A stretch of 64,000 bases of DNA from Terriglobia bacterium (GTDB lineage: Bacteria > Acidobacteriota > Terriglobia > UBA7540), in contig DASTAW010000039.1 of the NCBI GenBank assembly GCA_035712365.1, positions 62,001 to 126,000 on the forward strand, in the 5' to 3' direction. Under the pieces are notes generated by a model, which was not told the DNA's origin, did no database searches, and worked only from the letters and a program-made list of their open reading frames with translations. Numbering within the stretch: position 1 is the first letter of the stretch; every line of letters begins with the position of its first letter. Shown here piece by piece: positions 22,797 to 49,293 of the stretch. A program made the translations under genes and the position numbers.

Positions 22797-22893
22797 TTAT
22801 GAATTGTGAATTATGAATCAGGCAGCAGATTAGTGATTAGTGAATAGCAGATGCGCTGCAAATCGCCAATCGCCAATCGCCAATCGCAATTCT
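22797..22893. repeat. facing 7-bp degenerate tandem arrays
   Basis: Units of GAATTAT/GTGAATT type and GATTAGT type occur on the left, and four near-identical CAATCGC units on the right. This is the first of the repeat blocks that fill the gaps of the cluster. Confidence 0.65.
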
Positions 22894-22938
22894 TGTTCCC
22901 CGCCCCGGCGGACAGCGGCTGCAGAAGAAGGAAGAACG

Positions 22939-23163
22939 ATGCGTGAATACGTCAGACAGCTCTTTTCTGAATCCGGTGAGGCAAGTTTCGGGCGCACCGG
23001 ATCATTTTTCGGCCTGGTGCTGGGATGTGGCTGGATTTCCTATCTGGTCTGGACCACCCACCATCTTCCGGACCTCGAAGGGCTGACGGTCTTCATTTCC
23101 ACGCTCTACGGACTCAGCAAGACCGGCGAGACCGTGCAGCGCGTGATCGGGAAGAAGAATTGA
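22939..23163 (+). CDS. holin-like small membrane protein
   Basis: A 74-residue protein with one clear hydrophobic segment (SFFGLVLGCGWISYLVW) and a second weaker one (LEGLTVFISTLYGL). The ATG at 22939 is chosen because AAGAAGGAAG precedes it and the upstream frame is repeat sequence. Size, topology and position next to an endolysin suggest a holin (inference). Confidence 0.6.
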   Translation: MREYVRQLFSESGEASFGRTGSFFGLVLGCGWISYLVWTTHHLPDLEGLTVFISTLYGLSKTGETVQRVIGKKN

Positions 23164-23380
23164 ACCATTGGCTCATTGAGTCATTGAACCATTGACTGAT
23201 TTCCTGATTGAGCCATTTGAAGACTGGACATACAGCGCATCGGCGATGGTCTGGGAAACCGGGCGATGAGCCAACAAGATCAGCAATCAGGAAATGAATC
23301 AATCAGCCAATGAACCAATCAGTCAACGAGTAAATCGGGTGAATGAGTCAATCAGGAAATGAATCAATGAGCCAATCATT
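23164..23380. repeat. octamer arrays (ATTGNNTS / SANNCAAT) in facing arms
   Basis: Left arm at about 23164-23215 with units such as ATTGGCTC, ATTGAGTC and ATTGACTG. Right arm at about 23280-23380 carries the reverse-complement type, such as CAATCAGC and CAATGAAC. The arms could pair into a long imperfect hairpin. The right arm overlaps the first codons of the next gene. Confidence 0.8.
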
Positions 23381-24470
23381 CAATTGTCTGATTCGTCGGG
23401 TCCCTGGCCGGTTTTGGTTTGCCGTGGGGGGATGCCTGCTGGCGGCGTTCTGGGTGCAACAGCACGACGCGCGAATTCGCCAGCAGGCGGGGCTTCAGCA
23501 GTTGCGGAACGAAACTTCCGCGCAGGTGGCCGCGCTGCGCCGGCAGGCGGCTGAGGACGTGCGACAGGCCAACGTCACGAACGCCGAGGCCGTGGCGAAA
23601 CTTGAGCAGCGCCGGCAGGAAGCCGAGCAGCAGGACCGGCAACTGGCCGCGCAGCTCGACCGTTTGCGCAAGCAGGCGCAGATCCAGGCTGACGAGGTGG
23701 CCACCCTTCCTATATCGGAAATAGTGACACGGGTGGCCGCCCAGCTTGGGTTGAAGGCGGAAGATGTTGCCGCAGGGGAAGGAGCGTTCGCACGCAAAGG
23801 CGCGAAGGCGCAAAGGAAATTACAAATTATGAATTATGAATTACAGACCCCTCACCCGGTCCCGCCAGGCGCGTCCACCCTCTCCCCTCGGAGAGGGCTT
23901 GCGTCTGCCACGTCTGTGCCGCGTGAGGAGCAAAGCACCGCAGAAAATCGGAGAGGGCCTGGCACCGCACAAGCCGCAGACATCGCAAAAGGCGCGATAT
24001 CTGCGCCACCCATGAATTACGAATTACCGGAAGCTGGGTCTTCCGCAGACATCGCAAAAGGTGCGATATCTGCGCCACCCGGCGTGACGACAGCCGCGGG
24101 AGGGCAGAGCCCTCCCCTACAAAACCAGGCGTCGCTGGCGCTCACTGCTTCCGGGGCGCGCAAGGTTGAAGCGTCGCTGGTGGCGCTCGATGCCTGCCGC
24201 GCGAAGAGCGATATCCAGGCCCGCCAGGTCTCGAATTGCCAGGCCCGGGCCGCGGCCGATGAAGCTGCCATCGCGCGCCTCAACGGTTCAGTGGCCAGCC
24301 TCAACCAGGCCCTCCAGGCGAAGGACAAAGTCCTTGTCGAGCAGCAGAGCGAGTACAAAGCGGAACTGCGCGCCGCCCGAGGCACTTTTCTGGGCCGCCT
24401 GGCCCGCCTGACCGAGCACGTGGCCATCGGCGTAGGGGTGGGCGTGGCGATTGGAGTGGCGGTGAAATGA
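23343..24470 (+). CDS. coiled-coil membrane protein with repeat-derived insert
   Basis: A 375-residue protein. N-terminal membrane anchor (FWFAVGGCLLAAFWV), then a Gln/Arg/Glu-rich coiled coil (about residues 40-125). A central stretch of about 110 residues (149-257) is encoded by repeats: CGCAAAGG units, GAATTAY units, and two GCAGACATCGC palindromes giving two copies of ADIAKGAISAPP. A second coiled coil (about 270-350) and a Gly/Val-rich hydrophobic C-terminus follow. Position suggests a spanin (Rz-like) or Mu lysis-region protein, but no specific family is recognised. The start is uncertain (23343 or 23367) because the repeat arm supplies both ATGs. Confidence 0.55.
   Translation: MSQSGNESMSQSFNCLIRRVPGRFWFAVGGCLLAAFWVQQHDARIRQQAGLQQLRNETSAQVAALRRQAAEDVRQANVTNAEAVAKLEQRRQEAEQQDRQLAAQLDRLRKQAQIQADEVATLPISEIVTRVAAQLGLKAEDVAAGEGAFARKGAKAQRKLQIMNYELQTPHPVPPGASTLSPRRGLASATSVPREEQSTAENRRGPGTAQAADIAKGAISAPPMNYELPEAGSSADIAKGAISAPPGVTTAAGGQSPPLQNQASLALTASGARKVEASLVALDACRAKSDIQARQVSNCQARAAADEAAIARLNGSVASLNQALQAKDKVLVEQQSEYKAELRAARGTFLGRLARLTEHVAIGVGVGVAIGVAVK
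23976..24080. repeat. two GCAGACATCGC palindromes inside a coding region
   Basis: Copies at 23976-24010 and 24045-24080, each with GCAGACATCGC facing GCGATATCTGC around a short A-rich loop. A GAATTAY run lies between them. Both are translated in frame. Confidence 0.8.
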
Positions 24471-24793
24471 TGCCCCAGGACTTTGCGCACATGGCGATGT
24501 GGTGGGGACCGGGCATGCTGCTTCTGCTCGCCCTCAGTTACGGATTCCTGCGCCTGGCGCAGGTGTGGATGGAGCGCACGCTCGACGCCAGACGCCGCCA
24601 GATGGAGGGCCTGTTCGGCATGGCGGAGCAGTATGTGAAGCAGTTCCTCAATGCGCAGTTGGCGCAGGCCGAGGCGCTTTCAAGGCTGGCCTCGAGCGTC
24701 GAGCAGAGCGACTCGCGCGACAGCATGGAACACCAGCAGATCCTGATCGCGCTGCGGGCCATGCACGGCGAGATCAAAGAATTGATTCATTGA
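24467..24793 (+). CDS. membrane-anchored coiled-coil phage protein (DUF2730-like position)
   Basis: A 108-residue protein with one N-terminal membrane helix (MLLLLALSYGFLRLAQVWM) and a long helical tail (AQLAQAEALSRLASSVEQSD). The ATG at 24467 overlaps the previous stop (ATGA), so the two are probably translationally coupled. In Mu-type clusters a small membrane/coiled-coil gene of the DUF2730 type occupies this place upstream of gp27; similarity is by architecture only. Confidence 0.5.
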   Translation: MMPQDFAHMAMWWGPGMLLLLALSYGFLRLAQVWMERTLDARRRQMEGLFGMAEQYVKQFLNAQLAQAEALSRLASSVEQSDSRDSMEHQQILIALRAMHGEIKELIH

Positions 24794-24795
24794 AG

Positions 24796-24952
24796 GATTG
24801 AATCATCGGCTCATTGATTTATTGACTGATTTTCTGATTGCTCCATTGCGCTGCTGGGCAAAGCAGCGCACCGGCGGTTTTAAAGTCAGGCAATCAACAA
24901 AGGAAATCAATAAGTCAGTCAATGGACCAATCAGGAAATGAGTAAATCAAAC
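24796..24952. repeat. octamer facing arrays
   Basis: Left arm (about 24796-24848) with ATTGNNTS units, spacer 24849-24890 containing a GCTGC...GCAGC hairpin, right arm (about 24892-24952) with SANNCAAT units. The whole gap between the two genes is this structure. Confidence 0.8.
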
Positions 24953-24989
24953 AATGAGTAAATCCGGAAATGATGGGGGCGTGAACGGT

Positions 24990-25331: not shown

Positions 25332-25339
25332 AAAGGCAG

Positions 25340-25505: not shown

Positions 25506-25510
25506 AGTAA

Positions 25511-26440: not shown

Positions 26441-26570
26441 ATTATGAATTGCGCTGGGGGCAATTAAGGATTGGATGATTGGCTCATTTGTTCATTGACT
26501 GATTGAAAGATCCTTCTCTTCAGTCAATGAGTCAATCAGGAAATCAGCCAATGAGCCAATCGGTCAATAA
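26441..26570. repeat. octamer facing arrays before terminase
   Basis: ATTGNNTS units at about 26464-26506, a 14-nt spacer, and SANNCAAT units at about 26521-26570. The right arm contains AGGAAAT, which may serve as ribosome binding site for the terminase. Confidence 0.8.
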
Positions 26571-26574: not shown

Positions 26575-28275
26575 ATGGCGCGAAACAAAACACAAACCGG
26601 AAAAAAGTCTGAGGCGCAAAAGCCCAAGTCTTCGGGCCGGGCTGAGGTGGCCGGCGCTCCCATTCGTCTGCTGCCTTACCAGCGGCGCTGGCTGGAGGAC
26701 CGTTCGCCGCTGAAGATGGTGGTGAAGGCGCGCCAGATCGGCTACTCATTTGCCGCTACGCTGCAAGCGCTGCTGCGCTGCCTCGAGCGCAAGACCACGT
26801 GGATCTTTCTTTCCAAGGGCGAGCGCCAGTCCAGGCTGCTGATGGAAAAAGTGCAGGAGCACATGCAGAGCTTCGGCATCGTCGCCCAGGCGTTCGAGTC
26901 CAGCTTCTTTGAAGGGGCCAGCCAGAAACAGCTTGAAGTGCGGCTGCCGAACGGGTCGGTGATTTACGGCCTGCCGTCGAACCCGGACACGGCGCGCGGC
27001 TATTCCGGCAACGTGACGCTCGACGAATTCGCTTTCCACGCCGACGCGGCAAAAATCTATTCGGCGCTGTTCCCCACCATCACGCGGGGCTATTCGCTGG
27101 AAGTGATCTCGACGCCCAACGGCCAGCAGGGAAAGTTTTATGAGTTGGCAAAGGCGGCAGGATTGACAGAGCAGGGATTAGGGATTAGGGGTCAGGGATT
27201 AGGGAAGGAAGGGGTTTTCACTAATCCCCAATCCCTAACCCCTAATTCCTTAAGTTGGTCTTCCCACTGGTGCGACGTGTACGAAGCCGTGCGCCAGGGA
27301 TTAAAGATCAATATCGAATTGCTGCGCGCGGCCTCGGACGACGAATCGACTTTCCAGCAGGAATTCTGCTGCCAGTTTGTTTCCACGGCGGAAAACTTTT
27401 TTCCGCCTGAGCTCCTGGCCGCCTGCCTGAGCTCGGAAGCCAGCACCCAGTGGTTAGTGAATAGTGATAAGTGTTTAGAAAAGCCGTTCACTAATCACTA
27501 TCCACTAGCCACTAACCACTTCTTCTTAGGCATCGACATCGGCCGGCATCACGACCGCACGGTTTTCTGGCTGGATGAGGTGACGACCGTTGATCGTCAT
27601 CCTGAGGCCGCTGAAGCGGCCGAAGGATCTGCTTTTGGAAGCAGCAGATTCCTTGCGGAGAAGCAGATTCCTCGCTGGGCTCGGAATGACGGAGGTTCGG
27701 GGCTCGGAATGACGGAGGAACGCGTTCAGGGCGGGACAGAAGAACACCGTTCCATTGCTCGCCTGGTGCGCACGCTCGATCGCGCTCCGTTTGCCGAGCA
27801 ACTCGAGTGCGCGCGTGAACTGCTTCGCCTCGAGCGGGAAGACGGCAGCCCGCTGGTGCGCCGCGCCGCTATTGATGCCACAGGCATGGGAGCGATGCTG
27901 GCGGAAACGCTGGCGGCGGAATTCGGTCCAAGAGTCGAGCCGGTGACGTTTACTTCGGCGGTGAAAGAGGACCTGGCGTACAGGACCAAGCGGCGGATGG
28001 AAAAACAGCTCTCGCTGCTGCCCGACACACGCGAAGTGCGGCGGGCCTTCAGCGCCGTGAAGCGCGTGGTGACGCCGAGCGGCAATCTGCGCTTCGACGC
28101 CGTGCGCACCGCCGCGGGCCACGCCGACGAATTCTGGGCCAAGGCGCTGGCCGACCTGGCGGCAGATTCGGGGCCGGCGTCCGCAGCGGCAGACGCGTAT
28201 CTCGCGGGCGGCGCGGCCATCATCAAACCGGTCGCGTTCTTGGAACTCGATGAGGGATGGGGAGAAGCGTTTTGA
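26575..28275 (+). CDS. Mu gp28-like large terminase with three repeat-encoded inserts
   Basis: DNA-packaging motor, 566 residues from ATG 26575. ATPase: Walker A-like VVKARQIGYSFAATLQA (residues 49-65) and Walker B TLDEFAF (about 147). Nuclease: FFLGIDIGRHHDRTVFW (about 315-331, catalytic Asp) and AAIDATGMG (about 430). Three segments absent from normal terminases are encoded by repeats: residues about 199-225 (GGGATTA arms), 291-317 (AGTGNNT arms) and 340-381 (a GTCATCCTGAG element). They fall between the ATPase and nuclease domains, just before the nuclease, and after its first strand. The frame stays open throughout. Start uncertain; 26503 and 26551 are alternatives. Confidence 0.82.
   Translation: MARNKTQTGKKSEAQKPKSSGRAEVAGAPIRLLPYQRRWLEDRSPLKMVVKARQIGYSFAATLQALLRCLERKTTWIFLSKGERQSRLLMEKVQEHMQSFGIVAQAFESSFFEGASQKQLEVRLPNGSVIYGLPSNPDTARGYSGNVTLDEFAFHADAAKIYSALFPTITRGYSLEVISTPNGQQGKFYELAKAAGLTEQGLGIRGQGLGKEGVFTNPQSLTPNSLSWSSHWCDVYEAVRQGLKINIELLRAASDDESTFQQEFCCQFVSTAENFFPPELLAACLSSEASTQWLVNSDKCLEKPFTNHYPLATNHFFLGIDIGRHHDRTVFWLDEVTTVDRHPEAAEAAEGSAFGSSRFLAEKQIPRWARNDGGSGLGMTEERVQGGTEEHRSIARLVRTLDRAPFAEQLECARELLRLEREDGSPLVRRAAIDATGMGAMLAETLAAEFGPRVEPVTFTSAVKEDLAYRTKRRMEKQLSLLPDTREVRRAFSAVKRVVTPSGNLRFDAVRTAAGHADEFWAKALADLAADSGPASAAADAYLAGGAAIIKPVAFLELDEGWGEAF
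27173..27250. repeat. GGGATTA heptamer arms inside terminase
   Basis: Left arm GGGATTA, GGGATTA, GGGGTCA, GGGATTA; right arm TAATCCC, CAATCCC, TAACCCC, TAATTCC; spacer of about 20 nt. Period exactly 7 in both arms, translated in frame. Confidence 0.85.
27449..27525. repeat. AGTGNNT heptamer arms inside terminase
   Basis: Left arm AGTGGTT, AGTGAAT, AGTGATA, AGTGTTT; right arm CACTAAT, CACTATC, CACTAGC, CACTAAC. Spacer about 13 nt. Translated in frame immediately before the nuclease motif. Confidence 0.85.
27595..27716. repeat. GTCATCCTGAG composite palindrome inside terminase
   Basis: Starts GTCATCCTGAG, contains the hairpins GGCCGCTGAAGCGGCC and CTGCTTTTGGAAGCAG, several AGCAGATTC units, and ends with two CTCGGAATGAC units, which are similar to the reverse complement of the start. 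Translated in frame. Confidence 0.75.
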
Positions 28276-28395
28276 AATTCGAATTGACTGATTGATTCAT
28301 TGAATCATTGGCTCATTGTCTGATTGAAAGGCGTGGATTCCGGTCTCTCAATCAGCAAATCAGTAAATGAGTAAATCAATCAATCGGCAAATCAC
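28276..28395. repeat. octamer facing arrays between terminase and portal
   Basis: The cleanest example: left arm units ATTGACTG, ATTGATTC, ATTGAATC, ATTGGCTC, ATTGTCTG; a 22-nt spacer; right arm units CAATCAGC, AAATCAGT, AAATGAGT, AAATCAAT, CAATCGGC. Every unit keeps the 8-bp period. Confidence 0.88.
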
Positions 28396-28417: not shown

Positions 28418-29737
28418 ATGAAACTCGGACCAATTGACATTCAATGGCGAAACGAGAGGCTGGCGGAATCGCAATCGACCGTGCCGCTGGAACGCACCGC
28501 GGCGACGGCTGAAACGCTGCCCGTAGGTTTGCCCGGCACGCCCATCTTCCACGGATTTCTGGAAGACTTTGGCGAATACAATCCGCAGCTTGAAGGGCTG
28601 ACGGCCATCCGCACCTACGAAAAGATGCGGCGCTCGGACGCGCAGGTGGCGGCCACGCTGCTGGCGTGCGAACTGCCCATCCGCGCCGCCAACTGGGACG
28701 TGCTGCCGGCAAGCGGAGACGCGCTCGACCGCGAGATCGCGCAGTTCGTCAAAGACAATCTGTTTGGCGGGCTGGAATACGTTTCGCCCGCGGGCGCGAA
28801 AACCACCCAGTGCTGGGACGAAGTGCTGCGCAACGCGCTGCTGATGCTGGCGATTGGCGCGGCCGCGCACGAGGAGATCTACGCCGTGGATGGCAACCGG
28901 GTGCGGCTGGCGCGCCTGGCCCCGCGGCTGCCCATCACTTTCTACCGCTGGATTACGGATGTGGACGGCGAAACGCTGCTGGCGCTGAACCAGTACGGCT
29001 ACCGGAATTCGAATTTCGAGAGCGTGGAGATTCCGGCGGACCGCCTGGCGGTGTTCACCTTCAACAAGGAGGGCGCCAACTTTTTCGGGCGGTCGATGCT
29101 GCGGCCCGCGTACATGCACTGGTACATCAAGCACAACCTCTACCGCATCGACGCCATCGCCGGCGAACGCAACGGCCTGGGCATTCCCACCATCGAACAA
29201 GGAACCGGCGCCTCAAAAGAAGACCGCCAGGCCGCTGCGTCGTGGGTGACGCAACTCGCCGCGCACGAGAAGACCGGCATCGCGCTGCCCGCCGGATGGA
29301 AACTGACCCTGCAAGGCGTGCAGGGCCAGGTGCGCGACCTGTTCAATTCTATTGAACACCACAACATTGAAATATCCAGAACGGCACTTGCCTTCTTTAT
29401 GAACCTCGGCCAGAGCTCGAAGTCGAGCGGTAACCGCGCGCTGGGCCAGGAAATGACCGACTTCTTCTTCCTGGCCGTGCAGGCGACCGCCGACCAGATT
29501 GCGCGAACGATTACTTCAACCGCTGTCAAGCGGCTGGTGGACTGCAACTGGGACGGAGTGGAGAAGTATCCGTCGCTCCAGGCTTCAAACCTGCGCGCGC
29601 GCAGCCTGGACCAGACGCTCACCGCGCTCAGCCAGCTTGCCACGGCCAAGGTGATGGCTCCCTATCCCGAGCTGGCGCAGCACATCGCGCGCGAATTGGG
29701 ATTGCCGCAGCCGCCGGAGAAGAGCAGTGAACAGTGA
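28418..29737 (+). CDS. Mu gp29-like portal protein (DUF935)
   Basis: A 439-residue portal subunit of the DUF935/Mu gp29 family, forming the DNA channel at the capsid vertex. Family-type features: YEKMRRSDAQVAATLLACEL near residue 70, GAAAHEEIYAVDGNRVRLAR, the strand-rich wing with RWITDVDGETLLALNQYGYR, NNxFGRSMLRP-like FFGRSMLRPAYMHWYIKHNL, and the crown helices near GNRALGQEMTDFFFLAVQAT. No repeat insert. The ATG at 28418 is preceded by GGGGACGTG. Sits immediately after the terminase, the standard order. Confidence 0.85.
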   Translation: MKLGPIDIQWRNERLAESQSTVPLERTAATAETLPVGLPGTPIFHGFLEDFGEYNPQLEGLTAIRTYEKMRRSDAQVAATLLACELPIRAANWDVLPASGDALDREIAQFVKDNLFGGLEYVSPAGAKTTQCWDEVLRNALLMLAIGAAAHEEIYAVDGNRVRLARLAPRLPITFYRWITDVDGETLLALNQYGYRNSNFESVEIPADRLAVFTFNKEGANFFGRSMLRPAYMHWYIKHNLYRIDAIAGERNGLGIPTIEQGTGASKEDRQAAASWVTQLAAHEKTGIALPAGWKLTLQGVQGQVRDLFNSIEHHNIEISRTALAFFMNLGQSSKSSGNRALGQEMTDFFFLAVQATADQIARTITSTAVKRLVDCNWDGVEKYPSLQASNLRARSLDQTLTALSQLATAKVMAPYPELAQHIARELGLPQPPEKSSEQ

Positions 29738-29811
29738 TGAGTGGTTAGTGGATAGTGAGAAGCAAACGACGATTTGAAATGTGAGATTTCAGATTTGAGA
29801 TTGGAGACGAA
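29738..29811. repeat. heptamer array block before the protease gene
   Basis: AGTGGTT/AGTGGAT-type units, followed by GAGATTT-type heptamers (GAGATTT, CAGATTT, GAGATTG) that run into the ribosome binding site of the next gene. Confidence 0.7.
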
Positions 29812-31065
29812 ATGCTGAGCACTTTGGAGCAAACAACAGCGCCGCGGTTCCTGGCCACGCTGGGACCTGCCGCCGGCGACGGGCCGGGGAAGGTCCGAAT
29901 TCCGTTGGCCGTCACGGGAACGTGGGTGCGCGGATCGAACAAATTGTCGATTACGCGCGACGATCTGGAATCGATTGTGCGCAACTTCCGCGAGCGGCAG
30001 AACGGCGAAATCAATGTGGATTACGACCACGCCAGCGAGATGCCAGAAGTGGCCGCGGGTGGCCCCATACCGAGCGCGGGAAGGATTGTTGGCATCGATG
30101 AACCGGAAACGCTCGGGGCGAATAGCGAATCGCGAATGGCGAATGGAAACGACGATTCGCCACTCGCTGCTCGCTACTCGCGCTTTATTCTCTGGGGATG
30201 GTTCGAACCCACTGAACGCGCCCGCACGCTGGTGAGGGACCGCGAGTATCGCTACATCTCGCCGGCCATCGACTGGGGCGCGAAAAACAAACGGACCGGC
30301 AAGCCGCAGGGAGCCACGCTGACTTCGGTGGCGCTCACCAACCGGCCATTCCTGGAAGAAATGCCGCAAATCCGGCTGTCCGATCCGGGCTATCGCCTGG
30401 TGGGGGAGGACCATGAGCAGGGAGCAAGAAGCCAGGAGCAAGGAGCGAGCGGCGAACGATTCGAAGTTTCAGATTCAAGATTCGAGACAGGAGGATCAAT
30501 GAAGAAGGTACAACTTTCCGTCGCGGACGGAAAAATCAAAGTCAATCATCCGGACCTTGCGGACGAGTATTACGCCGATCCGGAAGATGCAGCCCAGGCG
30601 CTCGAGACGCTCGGTGCCCAGCAAGGCGGGATCGAGGCAGCGCCTGGCGGGGCCGCCAGAGACGTGCCGATGGCCCAGGCCGCGGCTGTGATGTCCGAGG
30701 CTGAAGCGCAGGGGAAATCGATTTCCGCCGTGGAAGTGTTCCGTGCGCGGGTGGAGCAGGCCCTCGATGACGCCGTGCGCAGCGGCAAGGTCCTGCCGCG
30801 CCGTCGCGACGACTGGCGGCGCATCGCGCTGGCGGACTTCGGCGCGTTTTCGCGCCTCGTGTCCGAGCAGCCGGCGCGCATTCCGCTGCAGCCGGTGGGC
30901 TTTTCCGGCGGCGTTCCGGAAAACGTGCAGGCGCAGGTGAAGTTCATGGCCGAGCAGCGCATGAAGGAGCGCGGCGTCAGCTATGGCCAGGCGCTTACGG
31001 AAATCGGACGCGAACAGCCTGACCTCATCCATCAGTACCGGCGCTCGGTAAGCGGCGGGGAATAG
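29812..31065 (+). CDS. Mu gpI-like capsid maturation protease with scaffold tail
   Basis: A 417-residue prohead protease/scaffold. The N-terminal 190 residues match Mu gpI: GKVRIPLAVTGTWVRG, RNFRERQNGEINVDYDHASE, FILWGWFEPTERARTLVRD, YRYISPAIDW and ATLTSVALTNRPFLEEMPQI. Two repeat-encoded inserts are present: residues about 102-123 (GCGAATN arms, between the central Asp/His motif and the next strand) and about 200-226 (GGAGCAA-type units), the latter forming the linker to the C-terminal part. The C-terminal 188 residues look like a scaffold. RBS GGAG 5 bases upstream of ATG 29812. Confidence 0.82.
   Translation: MLSTLEQTTAPRFLATLGPAAGDGPGKVRIPLAVTGTWVRGSNKLSITRDDLESIVRNFRERQNGEINVDYDHASEMPEVAAGGPIPSAGRIVGIDEPETLGANSESRMANGNDDSPLAARYSRFILWGWFEPTERARTLVRDREYRYISPAIDWGAKNKRTGKPQGATLTSVALTNRPFLEEMPQIRLSDPGYRLVGEDHEQGARSQEQGASGERFEVSDSRFETGGSMKKVQLSVADGKIKVNHPDLADEYYADPEDAAQALETLGAQQGGIEAAPGGAARDVPMAQAAAVMSEAEAQGKSISAVEVFRARVEQALDDAVRSGKVLPRRRDDWRRIALADFGAFSRLVSEQPARIPLQPVGFSGGVPENVQAQVKFMAEQRMKERGVSYGQALTEIGREQPDLIHQYRRSVSGGE
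30117..30182. repeat. GCGAATN heptamer arms inside the protease gene
   Basis: Left arm GCGAATA, GCGAATC, GCGAATG, GCGAATG; right arm ATTCGCC, ACTCGCT, GCTCGCT, ACTCGCG. Translated in frame. Confidence 0.85.
30499..31065 (+). CDS. nested in-frame scaffold protein
   Basis: An internal ATG at 30499, in the same frame as the protease, has an excellent ribosome binding site (GGAGGATCA). Translation from it gives 188 residues beginning MKKVQLSVADGKIKVNHPDL, rich in Ala/Glu/Gln helices (PMAQAAAVMSEAEAQGKSIS). This is the arrangement of lambda C/Nu3 and Mu I/Z, where a scaffold is made as the C-terminal part of the protease gene. Direct evidence is the start site and composition; the role is inferred from those precedents. 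Confidence 0.65.
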   Translation: MKKVQLSVADGKIKVNHPDLADEYYADPEDAAQALETLGAQQGGIEAAPGGAARDVPMAQAAAVMSEAEAQGKSISAVEVFRARVEQALDDAVRSGKVLPRRRDDWRRIALADFGAFSRLVSEQPARIPLQPVGFSGGVPENVQAQVKFMAEQRMKERGVSYGQALTEIGREQPDLIHQYRRSVSGGE

Positions 31066-31066: not shown

Positions 31067-31205
31067 AAAGAAGCCGGAAGCCAGGAGCCGGAAGCCGGGA
31101 GCAAGGAGCAGGCTGGCGGCTGAGAGCCGTGAGCAGGTTGTAGCGCCGGTCAATGACCGGCGAAAGCAGGAAAAATCTGCCGCTCACTGAGCGGCGCTAC
31201 AAAAG
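31067..31205. repeat. GRAGCMR heptamers plus GTAGCGCC element
   Basis: About six GAAGCCG/GGAGCAA-type heptamers (31070-31112), then a 61-bp element at 31140-31200 with GTAGCGCC/GGCGCTAC termini. It encloses two hairpins (GCCGGTC/GACCGGC and GCCGCTC/GAGCGGC), so it can fold as a three-way junction. Confidence 0.8.
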
Positions 31206-31624: not shown

Positions 31625-31958
31625 CGCGATTGACTGATTGAATCATTTATTCATTGACTCATTGAATCAATGAGCCAATCAGCCAATGAGTCAATTTTCC
31701 TGCGGGTCAGGCCCTGTACCGTCTGGTACAGGGCAGGCCCTGGCGGTCAGCCGCCGGGGTACTACGTTCCACTTTGGGCCGGGCGACCTGCTGACGGGTC
31801 TCCGCGTGGAGGAGTCAGGAGCCAGAAGCCAGAAGCCAAGAATAGGGATCAAGCGAAACCTCACTCCTTGCTTCTTGCTCCTTGCTTCCTGTTTTTTGCT
31901 CCCGGCTCCTTCGTTAAACCCGCGCGCGGAGCGCCAACCCGAGAGTGGATTTTGGAGA
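31625..31958. repeat. long repeat-filled gap before the capsid gene
   Basis: No gene in 340 bp. In order: octamer facing arrays (31627-31697), a GCCCTGTACC/GGTACAGGGC hairpin (about 31710-31735), a GGCGGTCAGCCGCC hairpin, then GAAGCCA-type heptamers (31818-31850) facing TTGCTCC/CTTCCTG-type units (31862-31912). Confidence 0.75.
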
Positions 31959-32900: not shown

Positions 32901-33118
32901 GGCCATTGGTGATTGAGTGATTGGTGATTGAACGATTGAACGGCCCAGCGGTGTTTTTCAATCGTAAGTCGCCAATCACCAATCGCAAATGATCGACCCG
33001 CAGTTCGGAGTTCAGGGTTCTGAGTTATGGGTGAATACCAGAAAGGACACTGGCATCGTCAACTCATAACTCATAACCCAGAACCCGTAACTCAGAACGT
33101 GACGGAAAGGAAAGGCGG
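32901..33118. repeat. two repeat blocks between capsid and connector genes
   Basis: First block 32903-32990: ATTGGTG/ATTGAGTG-type units facing CAATCACC-type units. Second block 33003-33100: heptamers AGTTCGG, AGTTCAG, GGTTCTG, AGTTATG facing AACTCAT, AACTCAT, AACCCAG, AACCCGT, AACTCAG. Confidence 0.82.
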
Positions 33119-33612: not shown

Positions 33613-33745
33613 GTTCGGGGTTCTGAGTACTGGGTTATGAGTGAAAAGAAATTACGAATTATGAATTACGAATTACCACGCTTCAGGTGGCGCAGACATC
33701 GCGCTCTGCGCGATGTCTGCGGCCTGACGCAACCACTGGTGAAAA
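33612..33745. repeat. heptamer runs and a GCAGACATCGC palindrome
   Basis: GGTTCTG-type units (33612-33645), GAATTAY units (33650-33678), and a palindrome at about 33690-33722 in which GCAGACATCGC and GCGATGTCTGC pair perfectly. Confidence 0.82.
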
Positions 33746-33982: not shown

Positions 33983-33998
33983 GACGTGAGGTGTCAAG

Positions 33999-34586: not shown

Positions 34587-34587
34587 G

Positions 34588-38708: not shown

Positions 38709-39308
38709 ATGGCAAATGTTGATGCAACAAAAATTCACCAGGGGCCGGGGAGGCTGTGGCTGGGCGTTTCGGTGCCGACCACGGGCAATCGGCTGGTTAT
38801 CGATGCCGGCGGAAATCCCACGGCCGGAACACCGCTGTTTGCGGGCGCAACGGACGGGGCCGCCACCATGGTGCTGACTCCGAAGCTGACGGAGATCACT
38901 GCGGACCAGGTGACTGGACCTGTGGACGTGGTGATGACGGGCGAAGCCGCCTCGATCGAGGTGACGCTGAAGGAATCAGACCTGGCGAAGCTGAAGAATT
39001 ACATTGTCCACGGCAGCTTCTCGACCGGAACCGACAGCTCGCTGCCGGCGGGCTCGCAAAGCTACGAGGAGATCTCATTCGGCGGATTGATGGCGATTCC
39101 CAAAACCTCAGTGGCGGTGATCTCCGCGCGGCGGGATGCGGCGGGAAAATTCGTGGTGACGCAACTCTACCAGGCTTACCAGGCGGAGGCCGTGCAGTTG
39201 CCGTTCCAGCGCGCCAAAGAGACCACCTACAAGATCAAGTTCGAGGGCCTGGTCGATCCCACGCGCTCCGTCGGCGACCAGGTGGGGAAAATCTACAGGC
39301 AGATTTAA
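38709..39308 (+). CDS. major tail tube-like protein
   Basis: A 199-residue beta-rich protein starting MANVDATKIHQGPGRLWLGV, with the alternating-strand pattern LTEITADQVTGPVDVVMTGE and ASIEVTLKESDLAKLKNYIV and a C-terminal YKIKFEGLVDPTRSVGDQVG. This matches the general layout of long-tail tube subunits, which begin with a (T)G-x-G-x-L-(W/Y)-(L/V)-G strand. It precedes the tail-chaperone and tape-measure genes, the conserved order. No sheath gene was seen, so the tail is probably non-contractile. Confidence 0.7.
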   Translation: MANVDATKIHQGPGRLWLGVSVPTTGNRLVIDAGGNPTAGTPLFAGATDGAATMVLTPKLTEITADQVTGPVDVVMTGEAASIEVTLKESDLAKLKNYIVHGSFSTGTDSSLPAGSQSYEEISFGGLMAIPKTSVAVISARRDAAGKFVVTQLYQAYQAEAVQLPFQRAKETTYKIKFEGLVDPTRSVGDQVGKIYRQI

Positions 39309-39398
39309 GGATTGAGGGATTGACGGATTGATTCATTGAAGAAATCCGGCAATGAGCCAATCAGAAAATCAGCCAATCGGCCAATGATTGGAGGTTGC
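39309..39398. repeat. octamer facing arrays before the tail chaperone
   Basis: Units GATTGAGG, GATTGACG, GATTGATT on the left (39311-39338); CAATGAGC, CAATCAGA, AAATCAGC, CAATCGGC on the right (39350-39388). Confidence 0.8.
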
Positions 39399-40111: not shown

Positions 40112-40984
40112 ATGGCTACAAACAACGCAGCAGAACTTTTGATTCGCATTGCCGCCGATCCTTCGCAGGCTGAGACGAGCATCCAGTCTTTCCGCTCGAG
40201 CTTCAGCGGGAACCTCGGCGGCATGAGCAGCGACCTCACGCAGTGGTCAAGCAGCGGGACCTCGAGTTTCGGCAGCGTACAGAAATCAATGCAGGGGCTG
40301 ACCAGCAACTTCGGGTTAAGCCTGAACACCCTCAATGCGTCACTGAAACAGAGCGGGCTGGCCGTTGGACAGTGGGGAAGCGGCGTCGGCAGCACGTTTT
40401 CGAGCGCCCTGAGCGCCTCGAACGCGCTTCAAACCAGTTTACTGGGAAGCTTCAAGTCATTTGATTCGGCGCTGGTGCGGAACACCGGCAACGCCAGCGT
40501 CTGGCAAAAAAGCATTGGCCAGGCGTTTGAGAAGGCGGCGCTCACTTCCATCAGCGCAATCGCCAAAGAGGCGGTGGTGCGGGCGATCTACTCAACGGCG
40601 CTCGGCTTCTACATGCTGGCGGTGGGAGACTTTGCGGGCGCAGGCCAGGCGTTTGAAGCGGCAGCAGTGTTCGGCGCGGTGGGAGGGGCCGCGGGGCTGG
40701 CCGCCAAGGCGCTCAGCGGAGCAGCATCGAGCAGCGGCGCGGGGCAGAAAACTTCAACGAGCGGCTCATCGACGCGCAGCCAATCATCTACAGCGCAAGC
40801 GACAGCCGGCGCGCAGAGTTCCGCCCAGAAGCAGCCAACAGTGCAGGTGATTTTCCAGGGACCGGTGTACGGAGGCCAGGCAGGAGTGGACGAACTGGTG
40901 CGGCACATCTCGAAGGCGGTGGTGGAACGCGATGTGAACCTGGTTGCCTATACGGTGGTCCGGCAGCCGGCGAAACGCGCATAG
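40112..40984 (+). CDS. short tape measure protein
   Basis: A 290-residue protein placed where the tape measure always lies, directly after the tail chaperones. Low-complexity Ser/Gly/Ala/Gln helices (SSFSGNLGGMSSDLTQWSSS), a hydrophobic segment (about residues 150-205, FYMLAVGDFAGAGQAFEAAA and AVFGAVGGAAGLAAKAL) and a Ser/Thr/Gln-rich linker are typical. Tape measure length sets tail length at about 1.5 A per residue, so 290 residues imply a tail of only about 40-45 nm. ATG 40112 follows GAGAGGAAC. Confidence 0.7.
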   Translation: MATNNAAELLIRIAADPSQAETSIQSFRSSFSGNLGGMSSDLTQWSSSGTSSFGSVQKSMQGLTSNFGLSLNTLNASLKQSGLAVGQWGSGVGSTFSSALSASNALQTSLLGSFKSFDSALVRNTGNASVWQKSIGQAFEKAALTSISAIAKEAVVRAIYSTALGFYMLAVGDFAGAGQAFEAAAVFGAVGGAAGLAAKALSGAASSSGAGQKTSTSGSSTRSQSSTAQATAGAQSSAQKQPTVQVIFQGPVYGGQAGVDELVRHISKAVVERDVNLVAYTVVRQPAKRA

Positions 40985-41072
40985 AAAGGAGCAAGAAGTC
41001 AGAAGACAGAAGCCAGAAGCCAGAATGAAGGCCGTCTTTCTTCTGTCTCCTGGCTTCTGAATTCTGGTTTGA
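40985..41072. repeat. GAAGCCA heptamer facing arms
   Basis: GAAGCCA/GAAGTCA-type units (40985-41022) face TTCTGTC/GGCTTCT-type units (41038-41065). Confidence 0.8.
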
Positions 41073-41459: not shown

Positions 41460-41550
41460 GTGTTTAACGAATTAGCGATTGACTGATTGAGTGATTGACT
41501 CAATGATGCAGTGGTTAACATATGAATGACTTCAGCGGCTGTTTTCTTAA
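41460..41550. repeat. octamer array, mostly one arm
   Basis: Units GATTGACT, GATTGAGT, GATTGACT (41474-41505) run in one direction, with only a short opposing CAATGATG. Confidence 0.65.
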
Positions 41551-41748: not shown

Positions 41749-41800
41749 ATTTGATGATTGAGCGATTGACTGATTTGGCGATTGAAAGCTGGGATTCATA
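41749..41800. repeat. single-arm octamer array
   Basis: Units GATTGAGC, GATTGACT, GATTTGGC, GATTGAAA in one orientation; the opposing arm is lost or absent. Confidence 0.65.
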
Positions 41801-44800: not shown

Positions 44801-45812
44801 GCATCCGCGGACGCTCGTGGCCAATCCGATGGACGTGTTGCTGATGGTGGTCCAGAACGAGCTGGGGCTTGGGCAATCGTCCCTGCTGGAACCTTCGACG
44901 TGGAAGCTTTACGATCCCGCGAAGTGGGATCCCGCGAACACCATGAATCCCACGCTGATCAGCCCCAACCCCTATCTCGATGTGGACCAGGCGCTCTTTT
45001 ACCGCAACGGAATTTTTGCAGGGTACCTTTTTGATTTTGAATTCAAACAGCCCGTGGAAGCGAAACAGTTTCTGGAATTCGAGATTTTTCATCCGCTCGG
45101 CGGCTACGCAGTGATTCTGGCAGACGGGCGCATGTCTCCACGGTTTTTCGTTCCGCCGTATTCTTTTGCGGGTCTGGCCTCGCTCGACGAGCGGAACATC
45201 ACGGCGCTCCCGGGCGTCAAGCCGGAACCCCTTATCAACCAGGTGACGTTCCGAATGGACTACGACGGGAACGATTTCCAGACCGAGCTGCTGTTTCTCT
45301 CGTCTCCTTCGTTGCAGCAGTTCGGTCTGGCAGGGGAAGACATCATCGAGTCGAAGGGGATGAGACTCGAACGCGGCGGCGCTGCGCTGGCGAGCATCAC
45401 GGCCAATCGGATTTTCCAGCGCTACGGCGGGATCGACCCTGTATCGGGCTCGCCACGTGGCGGAGCGCCCGCCCTCAGCGTGACCAGCCAGTTTATGAAC
45501 CTGACGATCGAAGCTGGTGACTTTGTCTACTTTTCCCATCCCCTGCTGCCCAATCTTGAAGCCGGGACGCGAGGAATCTACAACCGCATCGTGGAAATAG
45601 TGGATAAACAACCGAACTACACCCAGGGAAACATGGCCTATCAGTTGCTGGACACCGGCTGGATGGGAGCCAAGGTGCTCTCGCGGATTGCTCCGCAGGG
45701 CACGCCCGCATGGAGCGCGGCTTCAAGCGCCGAGCGCGCGCGTTACATGTTTCTTTCGCAGGAAAGTAACGGGGCCTATTCGGATGGCACGCCGGGCAAA
45801 ACGGTCTTCTAG
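41835..45812 (+). CDS. 1325-residue tail hub/baseplate protein with embedded helical-barrel domain
   Basis: The largest gene of the cluster. Residues about 1-340 are beta-rich (structural, AYRVDVYSFTDSFHYQGSAT). Residues about 350-520 contain a carbohydrate-binding-like sandwich. Residues about 530-850 form paired helices with SGAMAWVAYAYGTYMERTGD, TDDNFICWFAFDKAARVMPA and GTLAVLAGLMRLSDNADLET, the look of an (alpha/alpha)6 glycosidase-type barrel. Residues about 880-1300 resemble a tail hub (IGALEIDAIDDSGFLTALAS; MNLTIEAGDFVYFSHPLLPN). Such fusions would join host-surface polysaccharide contact or cleavage to the tail tip. No repeat inserts. Catalytic residues cannot be assigned. Confidence 0.6.
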   Translation: MAEVSDYYSGDLAAALSQELAWIQSQINANVSPFAGAALTTGTSAPFVEGAVIAIRDSFSGLAQDSVPNIVLDPIAGLSPDDQPGPDGFPVNYSPTPLLSGSLLINLFTLSTAGDVSGRALNLSQPPSAYRVDVYSFTDSFHYQGSATIAPDGTWTVPSAQPGTAIAFLMDAGTAQPASGSSTASVTGWIAHTNMGVGKKLRDYFVRVTVRTDLESVVEDNIPIIVQDSTHARFGTSLTMGTGTLVAHVFHHDPSLGPVDLYSTLQHLAAYPDLPREVEVPPGDPDFFTASQLTSSNLPAVQNRCWIYSAALAIISFSVGGLWDAAARIITQLNALLESPGYLPTIVLEDAQDGTTSRWSLQSGAGSVVNALDTAEPPAASGGSKIIYFTAAAAPASWSFTGIGLPDAIDSLVEWRFKTNVDFKFTVGLTSSSGQVTSFCLVSSGAAGYDAAAKSVTAVAQLQLNAWQTYLADLNARIGQYLSGETVTSITSFTVELDSAGYLSLDDLSAGAPKPAGSLMVSYDVYNGQADQTIIRSGAMAWVAYAYGTYMERTGDYERAATGLESMLNLLFFLQSTAADARQNLIAGGWGIYQDPGYQYVPGQISSVYTDDNFICWFAFDKAARVMPAAAQTLLAQGLVTADESALLSAAASNASTKASEIRSAILGPLWIPASGNVKGHFARGASIAGLDTSLALDSASSWAAMFCHEIGDDSKAVECLKFAYETFFLANQQIVTSAVANSYNQAYQQLTPFDGFKPFADSTGGYSGSPASVSMEGTLAVLAGLMRLSDNADLETYFSTNYTGGLPSLIGRLVDSIKIVASTTSSDGLLAGSLAARALPWEIAVRKTISSTAWFWLTALRNDILLATSSADLGRHPCLKVPQGVHQSIQQLQGQSSIGALEIDAIDDSGFLTALASGGKLVGRRLTLSVGYPGMNSSDFVTVATQEIEGVEVLPAGGGYRLDCQDLNRYAKSQIFTVGDDGNAVSNQHPRTLVANPMDVLLMVVQNELGLGQSSLLEPSTWKLYDPAKWDPANTMNPTLISPNPYLDVDQALFYRNGIFAGYLFDFEFKQPVEAKQFLEFEIFHPLGGYAVILADGRMSPRFFVPPYSFAGLASLDERNITALPGVKPEPLINQVTFRMDYDGNDFQTELLFLSSPSLQQFGLAGEDIIESKGMRLERGGAALASITANRIFQRYGGIDPVSGSPRGGAPALSVTSQFMNLTIEAGDFVYFSHPLLPNLEAGTRGIYNRIVEIVDKQPNYTQGNMAYQLLDTGWMGAKVLSRIAPQGTPAWSAASSAERARYMFLSQESNGAYSDGTPGKTVF

Positions 45813-45996
45813 ATTGAATGATTGAGCGATTGAGAAATTGGGTGATTGAAAAATCAGATGCCCTACCGAAGGTTGCATAATCTAGTGGCACGTTGTTTTT
45901 GTAGCGCCGCCGTCTCGGCAGCATTTATCGAGTCCGGTCCCGCTTGGCGGGACTGGCGCTACGCGAAAACGCCACTATATTTTGCAATCCTCAATA
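45813..45996. repeat. octamer array plus GTAGCGCC element with conserved tail
   Basis: GATTGAAT/GATTGAGC-type units (45813-45852), then a 62-bp GTAGCGCC element (45901-45962) with an inner GTCCCGC/GCGGGAC hairpin, and downstream the 13-mer GCAATCCTCAATA (45984-45996) that also follows the copy at 60770. Confidence 0.75.
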
Positions 45997-46020
45997 AGTC
46001 GCCAATAAGGAGAAGAGGCA

Positions 46021-46506
46021 ATGGCACAATTGACGTTCACAACAACTCCGGGATTTGTGGACCTTCCGGACTTGGTGCTCCAGGCGGACCAGCCGCTGAC
46101 CGACTATGATCTCACCAAGATCAACAACAACGCCAAGTTTGCGGCCGTACGGCCTGAAGTTTTTTACGGCTGGTACAAGAACGGCGAGACGGTGACGATT
46201 CCGGTGAGTCCGGTGGATGGGTACGTTTACGCCCGGCAAGAACTGGAATACGAGGTCGCCGCGTGGTGCTCGAGATCCCCGGCAAGCGGCTCCGCCACCA
46301 ACGGAGCACTGCTCAAGCCCGCGCGCGCCAGCGTGAATGACGGGCCGGGCAGCCTGTTCCTGATGGATTTCTGGGTGGAAGAGAAGAACGAAGCGAATCC
46401 CGGCCTGGTCCACTGCGACGTCCACTACTGGGACGGCGGAACCGAGACGCCAACGACGGGCGGGTTTGTAAAGGTGCGAACGATCGCGATGAGATTGAGC
46501 GAATGA
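46021..46506 (+). CDS. tail-region protein, unknown
   Basis: A 161-residue beta-rich protein (MAQLTFTTTPGFVDLPDLVL; VEVFYGWYKNG-like VFYGWYKNGETVTIPVSPVD; LVHCDVHYWDGGTETP). No signal or membrane segment. AAGGAGAAGAGGC precedes the ATG. Lies between the hub gene and the tail-fibre genes; probably a fibre or baseplate accessory. Confidence 0.5.
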   Translation: MAQLTFTTTPGFVDLPDLVLQADQPLTDYDLTKINNNAKFAAVRPEVFYGWYKNGETVTIPVSPVDGYVYARQELEYEVAAWCSRSPASGSATNGALLKPARASVNDGPGSLFLMDFWVEEKNEANPGLVHCDVHYWDGGTETPTTGGFVKVRTIAMRLSE

Positions 46507-46597
46507 CCGATTGAAGGATTGATCGATTGACTGATTGAGTTAATGAATCAGTCTTCTAAATCTTTCAATTAAAAAATCAGCCAATGAGGAAATCAAA
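46507..46597. repeat. octamer facing arrays
   Basis: GATTGAAG, GATTGATC, GATTGACT, GATTGAGT (46509-46540) face CAATTAAA, AAATCAGC, CAATGAGG (46567-46595). Confidence 0.8.
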
Positions 46598-47263
46598 ATG
46601 GCAGTTGTCCGAACAGTCCTACCCCGCAAGGGAATCATCGAGCCCCAGCACGGGGCCAACTACGAAACCGACCTCGATACCAACTGGCAGATCATTGACA
46701 GCCTGTTGCAGGACGCCAATGATGTGCAGACGGCCGTCCAGGCTGCTCCTACGGTGACGGCCTGGGTGTCAGACCGGGGCATCTCCGGGGTGGTCAGCGG
46801 GTTTGCGCTTTCGACTTCTGCAACGCTGACGCCAGGCCTCGCGGCGGGTGCGCTTTACGCCCAGGGATTACGTTATGCACCGGCCTCGGCGCCGGCGCTC
46901 GCGGCCGCTCCGGCAAGCTCGACCAGCTACCTTTTCTATAATTCCACAGGCGGGTCCTACTACAACCTTACCGGCTCCGCCAGCACGCCCGGAGATGCGT
47001 TTATCGGTATTGTGGTGACCAACTCGACTGCCGTGATTTCGGTGACGCCGGCCACGAAGCTGTGGGGACAACTGACGGTAGCTCCCGGCGCGGTAGGAAA
47101 TTTTACCGTGCCGCACCTGCTGGGCCGCGTGCCCGTGGGGGCCTTGGTTCAAATGACATCGAGCGGAGCCATTTGGTTCCAGTCTGCGACGCTGTATGAC
47201 AATACGAATCTCTATCTGGTTGCCTCAGACCCGACGGTGACCGCAAAGGTGCAGATATGGTGA
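46598..47263 (+). CDS. tail fibre-like protein
   Basis: A 221-residue protein: short helical N-terminus (GIIEPQHGANYETDLDTNWQ, IIDSLLQDAND), then a beta-rich Ala/Ser/Thr region (TSYLFYNSTGGSYYNLTGSA) typical of fibre shafts and tips. Its stop overlaps the ATG of spike 2 by 7 bp, implying coupled translation. Confidence 0.6.
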   Translation: MAVVRTVLPRKGIIEPQHGANYETDLDTNWQIIDSLLQDANDVQTAVQAAPTVTAWVSDRGISGVVSGFALSTSATLTPGLAAGALYAQGLRYAPASAPALAAAPASSTSYLFYNSTGGSYYNLTGSASTPGDAFIGIVVTNSTAVISVTPATKLWGQLTVAPGAVGNFTVPHLLGRVPVGALVQMTSSGAIWFQSATLYDNTNLYLVASDPTVTAKVQIW

Positions 47264-49293
47264 AACAAATGAAAATCGGAAATCGGAAGCAGGGAGCAGG
47301 GAGCAAGGAGCAAGAGGCAAGAGCTGTGGCGATCCGCATCGCCTTTCTACTGGCTGGTTGCTTCTGGCTTCTGGCTCCTGCTTTTGCCCAGCAGCCCCAG
47401 GCGCCTGCGGGGACGCCGCTTTACTCCGCCAACGCCAAGTACGTGAATGGCATGGCGCCCGGTTACTGGCCAACCGCAGGCAGTGGATTGACGCTGCAAC
47501 TGAGTGCGGGCACGGCTTATTGCGGCAATCCACCCGCGCCGGTCAGCTATCCCGGCGGATCATTGGCCCTGGCTGCCAGCGCGACGAATTACGTTTACCT
47601 GGATCCTGCGAATAACTGCTCTCCCGCGGCCGCCACGTCCGGCTTTGCGGCAGGACAGGTTCCCATCGCCAAAGTTACGACCGGGGCGACATCGATCAGC
47701 TCGATTACCGATGCCCGCACATGGTTCCAGCCGCAGCCCTGCGTGACCGGTCTCGCAGGGGACCTTCACTGCTCGTCGCTGGGAACGAATCAGAACATTT
47801 CGCTCACTCCCAGCGGAACGGGAGCGTCGGTTATCACCAATCTTCAGGACAAAGGCGGGCAGGTCTTTAACGTGAAGGCATACGGCGCCAAAGGCGATGG
47901 AACGACGGACGACAGCGCCGCCATACAGGCTGCCTATGCAGCCGCAGTGGCCGCGGGAGGGGGCGCCGTCTACTTTCCTGGAACCAGCGCTTGCTACCTG
48001 GTTGACACAGCCATCAACGCGACTGGCGATGGCCACAAGATCGTGTTTGAGGGAGCAGGCGGCCCTGGGTACTCGACTTCCGGAAGCGCCAATGCTTTGA
48101 TCTGCGGGAATACCGGCGGCGCGGTGTTCGACATCACGATGGGGTTCAATCGCACTTTCTTCAACCTTGAAGTGACCGCGCAGAAGGCTGGTCTGAGCAA
48201 CCCAAGTTTGATTGGCATTCTCGCTGGACGGAATACCAGCGGTCAGGCTGGGCAGGATACACACATCGTTAATTGCAGCTTCATGATGCCGCTTCACTTC
48301 AGCGGTATAACGTACTCCTTCGGCTTATACTTTTTCGGTGAGGAGATATCCTTTGTCAGCGATACGTCCATCGCAGCCGATTACCCGATTGTGGTGACGA
48401 GCACCAACAATTTCAGCGTTTCCAGCACCTATGTCACCTTTGGTACCGGCACCTACTCCGAGACCGGCGATTCATTTACCAACGTGGAGCTTTACACTTC
48501 GGGCCTTGGCCCGGCCATTTACCTCTACAACGCTGAGGATATGAGGATTTCGGGTCATAGCTACAACGGAAGTCAAGCGAACCCTTATCCGGCGGGCCTC
48601 TACAACTACGCTATTTATGAGCATAATTGCAAGACTCTTACGATTTCACCCTGGCGCCAGGAAGGCTATCCGGGGTTCATGTATGTGGATAGCGGGCTGC
48701 TCGATAGCTACATTCTCGGCACGCATGGGGCCGCGCCCACGCCAACACTTCACGCAGTTGAGTTCAACGACGCAAATAGCAGTGTTGTTGACGTGGACTT
48801 TGAAATTCACGACCTCATCAACACGTCATCAAATTGGTATTACGATGGCACGGCTGGTTCGCCAACGGGCTTGTGGGCACTGGACAGCGTTCACTTCTAT
48901 TGCGGGAAAGAACCTAATTGCGTAGACATACCCATCGGGAATGGGGCTGGCACCGGCACTCATTACTGGCACAACATTAGCTGGTCGGGGTCAAGCACTA
49001 ACAGTGGTCCGGTTGTCCGGCTTGATGCTGGCGCTTTTACGTTGCCATTGACCGGCGGTTTCACCATTCCAACCAGTGCCGTTCCCGCCAACAGTTGCTC
49101 GACCCTGTCGTTCGTAAGCGCTGCGGGCGCCCCTGCTCTGGCGACAATACAAATGCACCCTCAAACCTGGTACGGACTGCTGGTAACAGCCTCGTGGGGA
49201 ACGGGCGGGTTCTCGCCGATGCTCTGTAACCCCACCAGCTCTTCCATAACTCCAGGCTCCACAATTGGGGCGACGTTCAGGGTCATTCAGTGA
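47257..49293 (+). CDS. exported pectate-lyase-fold spike protein 2
   Basis: 678 residues. The first 46 include a hydrophobic leader (FLLAGCFWLLAPAFAQ). The residues before and within it are encoded by the facing arms of a GGAGCAA/CTTCTGG-type heptamer repeat (47275-47390). Residues about 50-180 are a small adhesin-like beta domain. From about 195, QDKGGQVFNVKAYGAKGDGT with TDDSAAIQAAYAAAVAAGGG is the full pectate-lyase-superfamily signature, followed by a long beta-helix. Shares the QDKGGQVFNVKAYGA module with spike 1. Last gene of the phage-like cluster. Confidence 0.78.
   Translation: MVKQMKIGNRKQGAGSKEQEARAVAIRIAFLLAGCFWLLAPAFAQQPQAPAGTPLYSANAKYVNGMAPGYWPTAGSGLTLQLSAGTAYCGNPPAPVSYPGGSLALAASATNYVYLDPANNCSPAAATSGFAAGQVPIAKVTTGATSISSITDARTWFQPQPCVTGLAGDLHCSSLGTNQNISLTPSGTGASVITNLQDKGGQVFNVKAYGAKGDGTTDDSAAIQAAYAAAVAAGGGAVYFPGTSACYLVDTAINATGDGHKIVFEGAGGPGYSTSGSANALICGNTGGAVFDITMGFNRTFFNLEVTAQKAGLSNPSLIGILAGRNTSGQAGQDTHIVNCSFMMPLHFSGITYSFGLYFFGEEISFVSDTSIAADYPIVVTSTNNFSVSSTYVTFGTGTYSETGDSFTNVELYTSGLGPAIYLYNAEDMRISGHSYNGSQANPYPAGLYNYAIYEHNCKTLTISPWRQEGYPGFMYVDSGLLDSYILGTHGAAPTPTLHAVEFNDANSSVVDVDFEIHDLINTSSNWYYDGTAGSPTGLWALDSVHFYCGKEPNCVDIPIGNGAGTGTHYWHNISWSGSSTNSGPVVRLDAGAFTLPLTGGFTIPTSAVPANSCSTLSFVSAAGAPALATIQMHPQTWYGLLVTASWGTGGFSPMLCNPTSSSITPGSTIGATFRVIQ
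47275..47390. repeat. GRAGCAR heptamer arms encoding the spike 2 leader
   Basis: GAAGCAG, GGAGCAG, GGAGCAA, GGAGCAA, GAGGCAA units (47286-47322) face GGTTGCTT, CTGGCTT and CTGGCTCC-type units (47350-47378). Both arms lie in the coding region. Confidence 0.75.

Follow-up and report, generated by a model that had tools for sequence, protein, structure and literature searches.

The stretch of DNA analyzed here, 64,000 nucleotides in length and called the window, is taken from the 4.67 Mb draft genome (65 contigs, labelled G000) of a Terriglobia bacterium, where it corresponds to C39:62001-126000. It contains a phage-like capsid cluster which resembles a gene transfer agent (GTA). Almost every intercistronic gap of this cluster, and in addition a few tolerant loops inside its genes, are occupied by elements consisting of two facing arms of short, degenerate tandem units. 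The explanation favoured here, to which an about even chance is given, is that the elements are convergent short-tandem-repeat palindromes of the kind of the short tandemly repeated repetitive (STRR) heptamers, which colonise tolerant sites and change there by slippage and replacement.

The host background was sampled as 23 stretches of 20 kb, with the period coverage taken from 400 kb and the array counts from 497 kb. Between positions 22601 and 47400 of the window, segments with a period of 7 cover 19.6 bases/kb and those with a period of 8 cover 11.6 bases/kb, as compared to 0.3 each in the host sample and 0 in dinucleotide shuffles. A reading made from the sequence only had named units of 7, 8 and 9 bp; the signal is carried by the first two periods, and period 9 is minor. 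In the 26.7 kb of the cluster 40 arrays were counted (150/100 kb), compared to 14 in the host sample (2.8/100 kb), a difference of about 54-fold. Many unit families are present inside the single cluster, and genome-wide copies are sparse. The host had been described as almost lacking the arrays, which is correct in terms of density; however, the same families are found in rare cases between ordinary host genes, for example, beside larC and metG.

The described arrangement of a left arm, a spacer and a right arm of the reverse-complement unit was confirmed. Of the adjacent arm pairs of one family in the window, 12 are facing and a single one is head-to-tail; shuffled sequence contained none. 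Among 37 contigs carrying the cluster, adjacent arms of the same period and with related units were facing in 165 cases and head-to-tail in 35, with a median spacer of 14 bp. By mechanical calling of open reading frames (ORFs), 98 of these 165 facing elements are located outside a long ORF and 67 within one. The arrays had been assigned to the gaps, most of which are indeed occupied, but several elements lie in frame inside terL, the gene for the large terminase subunit, and inside the gene for a Mu-I-like protease.

The array-rich state is not general to phage genes, since a second, distant phage-like cluster in the related genome G001 (G001:C47, L061; portal 47% identical) has just 10 arrays/100 kb. 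Array-bearing genomes are the majority; values of 15 arrays/100 kb or less were obtained for G003, G008, G014, G015, G016, G027 and G030.

Fixed Slots with Changing Unit Families

The gaps of the cluster were compared among G000 and two genomes of the same genus, G001 and G002. Facing arms were identified at the same places, often built of unrelated units. The clearest family-switching slots are three loops inside terL. For the first of these slots, at least 13 families were identified: GGGATTA (in G000), GCGAATA (G002), GGAAATA (G001), GGTGTCA (G021), CAAGTGG (G022), ATTGGGTG, AGTGGTA, GAAGTCA, CTGGGGG, GAAACTC, AGAAGTC, CGAAGTC and GGGACTC. The units of arrays sharing a slot had a mean similarity of 0.658, compared to 0.534 for different slots in the same genome, 0.539 for the same slot in different genomes and 0.511 for unrelated elements; a permutation test gave 0/1000 for the genome effect as well as for the slot effect. 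At the level of families, the proposal that the symmetry of the arms is kept and not their sequence therefore holds.

Nearly all elements in the terL slots are in frame and free of stop codons; frameshifted elements were found in one slot, in L040, L117, L118 and one contig of G021. Slot 1 has a length of 39-279 nt in the family, as compared to 15 nt in nine distant homologues from true phages (L123-L131), in which slot 2 has a length of 51 nt. In L040 and G009, slot 1 contains nested or tripled hairpins. For one locus of G009 (L227), three in-frame tandem copies of an entire hairpin, each about 60 bp long, were observed. In some relatives, the same slots carry palindromes of the REPIN-like or other types instead. 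The slot in the protease gene is empty at the orthologous site in G002, and holds one family, GCGAATA, in G000 and G001.

Composition and Probable Turnover of the Arms

The octamer family follows the profile ATTG-R-N-Y-S, in which C and G are equally frequent at the last position. The ATTG core is conserved to 88-100% at positions 1-3 and to 80% at position 4, while positions 5-8 are free. Owing to the degeneracy of the units, a polarity scan of the cluster contigs with exact units gave no pairs, and polarity was determined by profile-based tests. In 503 of 542 pairs of elements, similar units run in the same direction with respect to the spacer, and the G-rich strand points inward, with the left arm being G-richer, in 136 of 165 elements versus 29; since the contigs are related, both counts are non-independent.

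The order of the units is not mirrored between the left and the right arm, as permuting the units left the fold-back no worse (164 elements, mean z -0.05, p 0.56). Therefore, the arms lack the pair-by-pair covariation which a selected hairpin would be expected to show and which had been named as a sign of selection, and the same test ruled out hairpin-templated repair or base-pair selection as the main force. Between slots the unit order is random, with one shared two-unit run observed and 1.46 expected. The two arms vary at the same unit positions (mean r 0.37, p 9e-22), and the changes show a stronger concentration than random decay would yield. This shows either a constraint at the level of the unit or a profile-driven source.

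Identity between units is 0.80 for adjacent ones and falls to 0.67 with distance. Two loci which are 97% identical, L046 and L057, differ in these elements by indels of 14 nt, corresponding to two heptamers, and of 18 nt. Both the indels and the greater likeness of adjacent units are as slippage would give. No exact 28-mer is common to any arm and another slot of its genome; whole arms were therefore not recently copied, and a recent copy-paste of this kind was rejected. The unmirrored order, the random order between slots and the slippage-like signs together argue for a turnover of palindromes, with the units being constrained or written as words, and against single base pairs being repaired or selected.

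Explanations for the Facing Arms

According to the favoured explanation, each element would be a non-autonomous, selfish or nearly neutral palindrome, in which units of 7-8 bp would be gained and lost through slippage and the free positions would drift. An element may sometimes be cleanly lost, and at the same site, which would be tolerant and may attract hairpins, another palindromic element may replace it or nest in it. The two arms would change together because whole palindromes turn over, and not by repair of single base pairs. At the RNA level, an intercistronic element would form a folded structure, by which the neighbouring genes may be tuned or insulated as a by-product or secondary use. 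In support of this explanation are the different families in the same slots, the in-frame placement in terL, the short slot 1 of true phages, the two-heptamer indel, the likeness of units within a genome and within a slot, the nested hairpins, the lack of shared 28-mers, the random unit order, the protease slot being empty in G002, and the arrival of REPIN-like and other palindromes in the same slots.

Several observations weigh against it. The density of REPIN-like GTAG elements in the cluster is only 1.5 times that of the host, compared to 54 times for the arrays; plain tolerance to insertions therefore fails to explain the hot spot, and a general tolerance to any insertion was rejected. Neither a target-site duplication nor a clean insertion boundary was found, and no mobilising enzyme was identified; the number of Y1 transposases has no dose relation to the array density (rho 0.15). 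In the gap before the orthologue of the ORF at 31214, both arms of the GGGATTA element are near-identical in L044 and L055, while the spacer and the flanks differ. Such near-unchanged elements suggest that a constraint may act on them.

The strongest alternative is that the elements are selected RNA hairpins, intercistronic stem-loops which set the mRNA stability or the protein ratios of the capsid operon, so that symmetry is kept while the sequence drifts. The 14 window elements analyzed are predicted to fold strongly (z -2.3 to -7.6), folding in the gaps of the G000 cluster is far stronger than in gaps of the host (mean z -3.1 versus -0.3, p 3e-6), and the right arms often terminate just 5' of a ribosome-binding site. 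A weaker folding excess was obtained even for the array-free cluster of G008 (p 0.009). However, G008, G003 and G016 retain the cluster almost without arrays, host operons are without such elements, and elements are also located within terL and the protease gene. In addition, no unit-by-unit register exists between the arms. The hairpins for gene dosage which the sequence-only reading had suggested are considered possible on account of their folding, but less likely than the favoured explanation.

A second alternative is an active generator of units. Here, a polymerase-like or end-extending activity would add units of 7-8 bp independently to each 3' end at a break or fork, in a way comparable to telomere addition followed by head-to-head fusion, and would yield facing arms with the G-rich strand inward. 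The fixed inward polarity, the unmirrored order and the random order between slots are in agreement with this, and the shared variable positions and concentrated mutations make the units resemble draws from one position-specific profile. The same profile would, however, result from a constraint on each unit, and the greater likeness of adjacent units is given by slippage too. A candidate enzyme was not found, and RVT_1 was not identified in G000, G001 and G002. A generator is thus regarded as unlikely. Slightly less credit still is given to its most far-reaching form, a unit-writing activity new to bacteria, which would rewrite fixed sites of the cluster with new words while the facing layout is kept, possibly at breaks made by the terminase.

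It is comparably improbable that the arrays are REPIN-like elements mobilised by REP-associated tyrosine transposases (RAYT), in which a Y1 transposase would copy them as single-stranded hairpins. With two facing units of fixed polarity and a spacer the elements are REPIN-like in layout, but they consist of tandem 7-8-mers without the GTAG motif, and for true REPIN-like elements the cluster is not a hot spot. In the window, GTAG...CTAC palindromes of this type occupy gaps alongside arrays (31140-31200 and 45901-45962). A different hairpin, CGCAGACATCGC...GCGATGTCTGCG, likewise occurs in the gaps; it is located at 23975, 24044, 25741, 33691, 35378 and 36173, and its density in the cluster is about 16 times that of the host sample. 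For Y1_Tnp, 10 matches were obtained in the window's genome, 9 of them over the cut-off, and most members of the family have several such genes. Of 31 genomes, four lack a Y1 transposase; three of these contain very few arrays, and Y1-free genomes hold fewer arrays (p 0.003). The Y1-free genomes are, however, just four, one of which, G013, has arrays, and a dose effect was rejected on the correlation given above.

Two further proposals of the earlier reading were dismissed: linkers for gene shuffling, also of an integron-like type, by the gene order, which is conserved among species (G000, G001, G002 and G008), and a product of a template-switching mobile element, taken as one with a reverse transcriptase (RT) such as a retroelement or a diversity-generating retroelement, by the missing RVT_1 in G000, G001 and G002, which are of the window's genus, and by RT counts which do not track array density across the family (rho 0.14).

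The Capsid Cluster and Comparison to Known Repeats

By comparison to Pfam and PHROGs, the cluster codes for a Mu-Gp27-like small terminase (a weak match), a large terminase, a Mu-type portal, a Mu-I-like protease and a head protein. Among the clusters compared, a phage lysozyme is present in this species alone. It follows a Mu gpG-like gene, which is intact in G002 and L039 but shortened here (33747-35103), and is accompanied by a gene of no assigned function, which likewise was not found in the other clusters compared. For two pectate-lyase-like tail-type proteins (36096-38420 and 47257-49293), the N-terminal coding regions are array-derived or repeat-rich. The coordinates of the features are listed in Table 1.

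Table 1: Arrays, facing arms and selected genes in the window.
Feature	Position	Strand	Remarks
Arrays AATTATG, AGTGATT, AATCGCC	22795..22892	.	ahead of cluster
Left arm, ATTGRNYS octamers	23159..23222	+	
Right arm, reverse complement of ATTGRNYS	23280..23384	-	
Left arm, ATTGRNYS	24781..24849	+	
Right arm, reverse complement of ATTGRNYS	24891..24964	-	
Left arm, terS-terL gap	26469..26511	+	
Right arm, terS-terL gap	26522..26568	-	terminates directly 5' of likely terL ATG at 26575
terL, terminase large subunit	26575..28275	+	PF03237, PF17289; listed ORF start is TTG 26503
In-frame facing arms GGGATTA / TAATCCC in terL (slot 1)	27173..27250	.	folds as RNA
In-frame facing arms AGTGATT / CCACTAA in terL (slot 2)	27449..27520	.	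near start of RNaseH-like part; folds as RNA
Facing arms ATTGACTC, terL-portal gap	28283..28394	.	folds as RNA
Portal protein	28418..29737	+	Portal_Mu, PF06074
Arrays AGTGGTTA and GATTTGA, portal-protease gap	29722..29807	.	
Mu-like protease/scaffold	29812..31065	+	PF10123
In-frame facing arms GCGAATA in protease	30118..30181	.	folds as RNA
Array GAAGCCG	31070..31110	+	
GTAG...CTAC REPIN-like palindrome	31140..31200	.	same gap as GAAGCCG array
Facing arms ATTGACTC	31628..31695	.	spacer near zero; folds as RNA
Facing arms AGGAGCC / GCTCCTT	31810..31903	.	folds as RNA
Facing arms, mixed 7/8-mers GATTGGT/GATTGAGT	32905..32990	.	folds as RNA
Facing arms GAGTTCT / AACTCAT	32999..33098	.	folds as RNA
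Arrays CTGAGTT and AATTACG	33609..33676	.	
Facing arms AATTACG / GTAATTC	35323..35468	.	spacer 94
Arrays TGAAGGA and AATTACG	36053..36150	.	
Facing arms GATTGACG / CAATCAGC	39302..39385	.	folds as RNA
Facing arms AGAAGCC / GGCTTCT	40983..41066	.	folds as RNA; orthologous G002 gap has GGCATGT-type arms
ATTGACTG array	41464..41506	.	
ATTGACTG array	41749..41788	+	
GATTGAGC array	45812..45854	+	
Facing arms GATTGACC	46493..46597	.	folds as RNA; orthologous G002 gap has ATCAGCC / GGCTGAT arms
Facing arms GGGAGCA / GCTTCTG	47273..47380	.	5' part of 47257 ORF; folds as RNA; G002 has GAATTAC arms

A search of 61 relatives identified the portal in 28, and a piece of the terminase is present in 31 of 39 family members. 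In the portal tree, every genus with several members forms one group, with the exception of g4. Synteny of the host flanks extends to G001 and G002, and the flanking genes also adjoin the cluster in G008, which belongs to another genus. The identity of the portal to known phages is below 60% throughout, with the best value at about 35% among the matches listed, and no integrase match was obtained among the cluster ORFs scanned, which are a subset of all ORFs. Because the portal tree largely follows the host genera and the flanks are syntenic in four genomes, the cluster looks vertically inherited. It looks like an old, family-wide, GTA-like cluster for capsid formation and packaging, which is possibly domesticated.

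In Xanthomonas, Rehm et al. 2015 (PMC4692102) described degenerate heptamers of the type (GGGANTN)n, in which conservation is confined to positions 1-4 and position 6. They form 70-75 convergent pairs per genome, which are mostly intergenic and differ between the same genes of two species (PMC4692102). The convergent heptamers of Xanthomonas and Nostoc have the same architecture and polarity as the elements of the cluster (PMC4692102). In contrast to the one family there, many unrelated families occur here, with the 54-fold concentration in one prophage-like cluster, the in-frame placement in terL and the switching of the whole family at one slot. Facing arms with many unit families in one operon had been called unusual; the facing architecture was already published (PMC4692102), while the presence of many families in one cluster is new. 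The same applies to the way in which the arrays are concentrated in a single ancient capsid cluster, to the slots in frame within terL and to the switching of families at fixed slots.

Other repeats share single traits with the elements. The STRR heptamers of cyanobacteria and the TAACTGA repeats of Beggiatoaceae are likewise short 7-mer arrays, largely intergenic and in scattered phyla (PMC4679880); TAACTGA repeats are direct, with one indirect repeat reported, and have a fixed unit (PMC4679880), whereas the arms described here are facing and their units degenerate. Rickettsia palindromic elements also comprise several palindrome families in frame in protein genes, but have about 150 bp, a conserved peptide and no heptamer arrays (reviewed in PMC10969869), while here the peptide varies with the unit family. 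REPINs, like the present elements, consist of two facing units and a spacer and are multiplied in one genome, but are short hairpins with a GTAG motif (PMC3116915, PMC3733652), which the consensus units of the arrays lack. The tandem repeats of Borgs, which are extrachromosomal elements, are likewise fast-evolving, present in gaps and in frame within genes, and nearly absent from the host; they are perfect and head-to-tail, with in-gene unit lengths divisible by three (PMC9879509), whereas the arrays here are degenerate (mean identity of adjacent units 0.80), facing and built of 7-8 bp units. GAATTAY arrays were also found in Cyanobacteria, Bacteroidota, Spirochaetes, Lentisphaerae, Chloroflexi and others, with the partner inward in 13 cases and outward in 5, and for GGGATTA in viral contigs the partner was inward in 5 cases and outward in none.

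Heptamer repeats are scattered over many phyla and have no accepted origin or role. With about 20 orthologous slots in more than 25 genomes, the cluster represents a natural time series for the origin of hairpins, the change of their families and their disappearance. The slots span gaps as well as an essential-looking motor gene. With this cluster, slippage, transposition and selection become testable against each other. The arrays also mark a capsid cluster which is family-wide and possibly domesticated.

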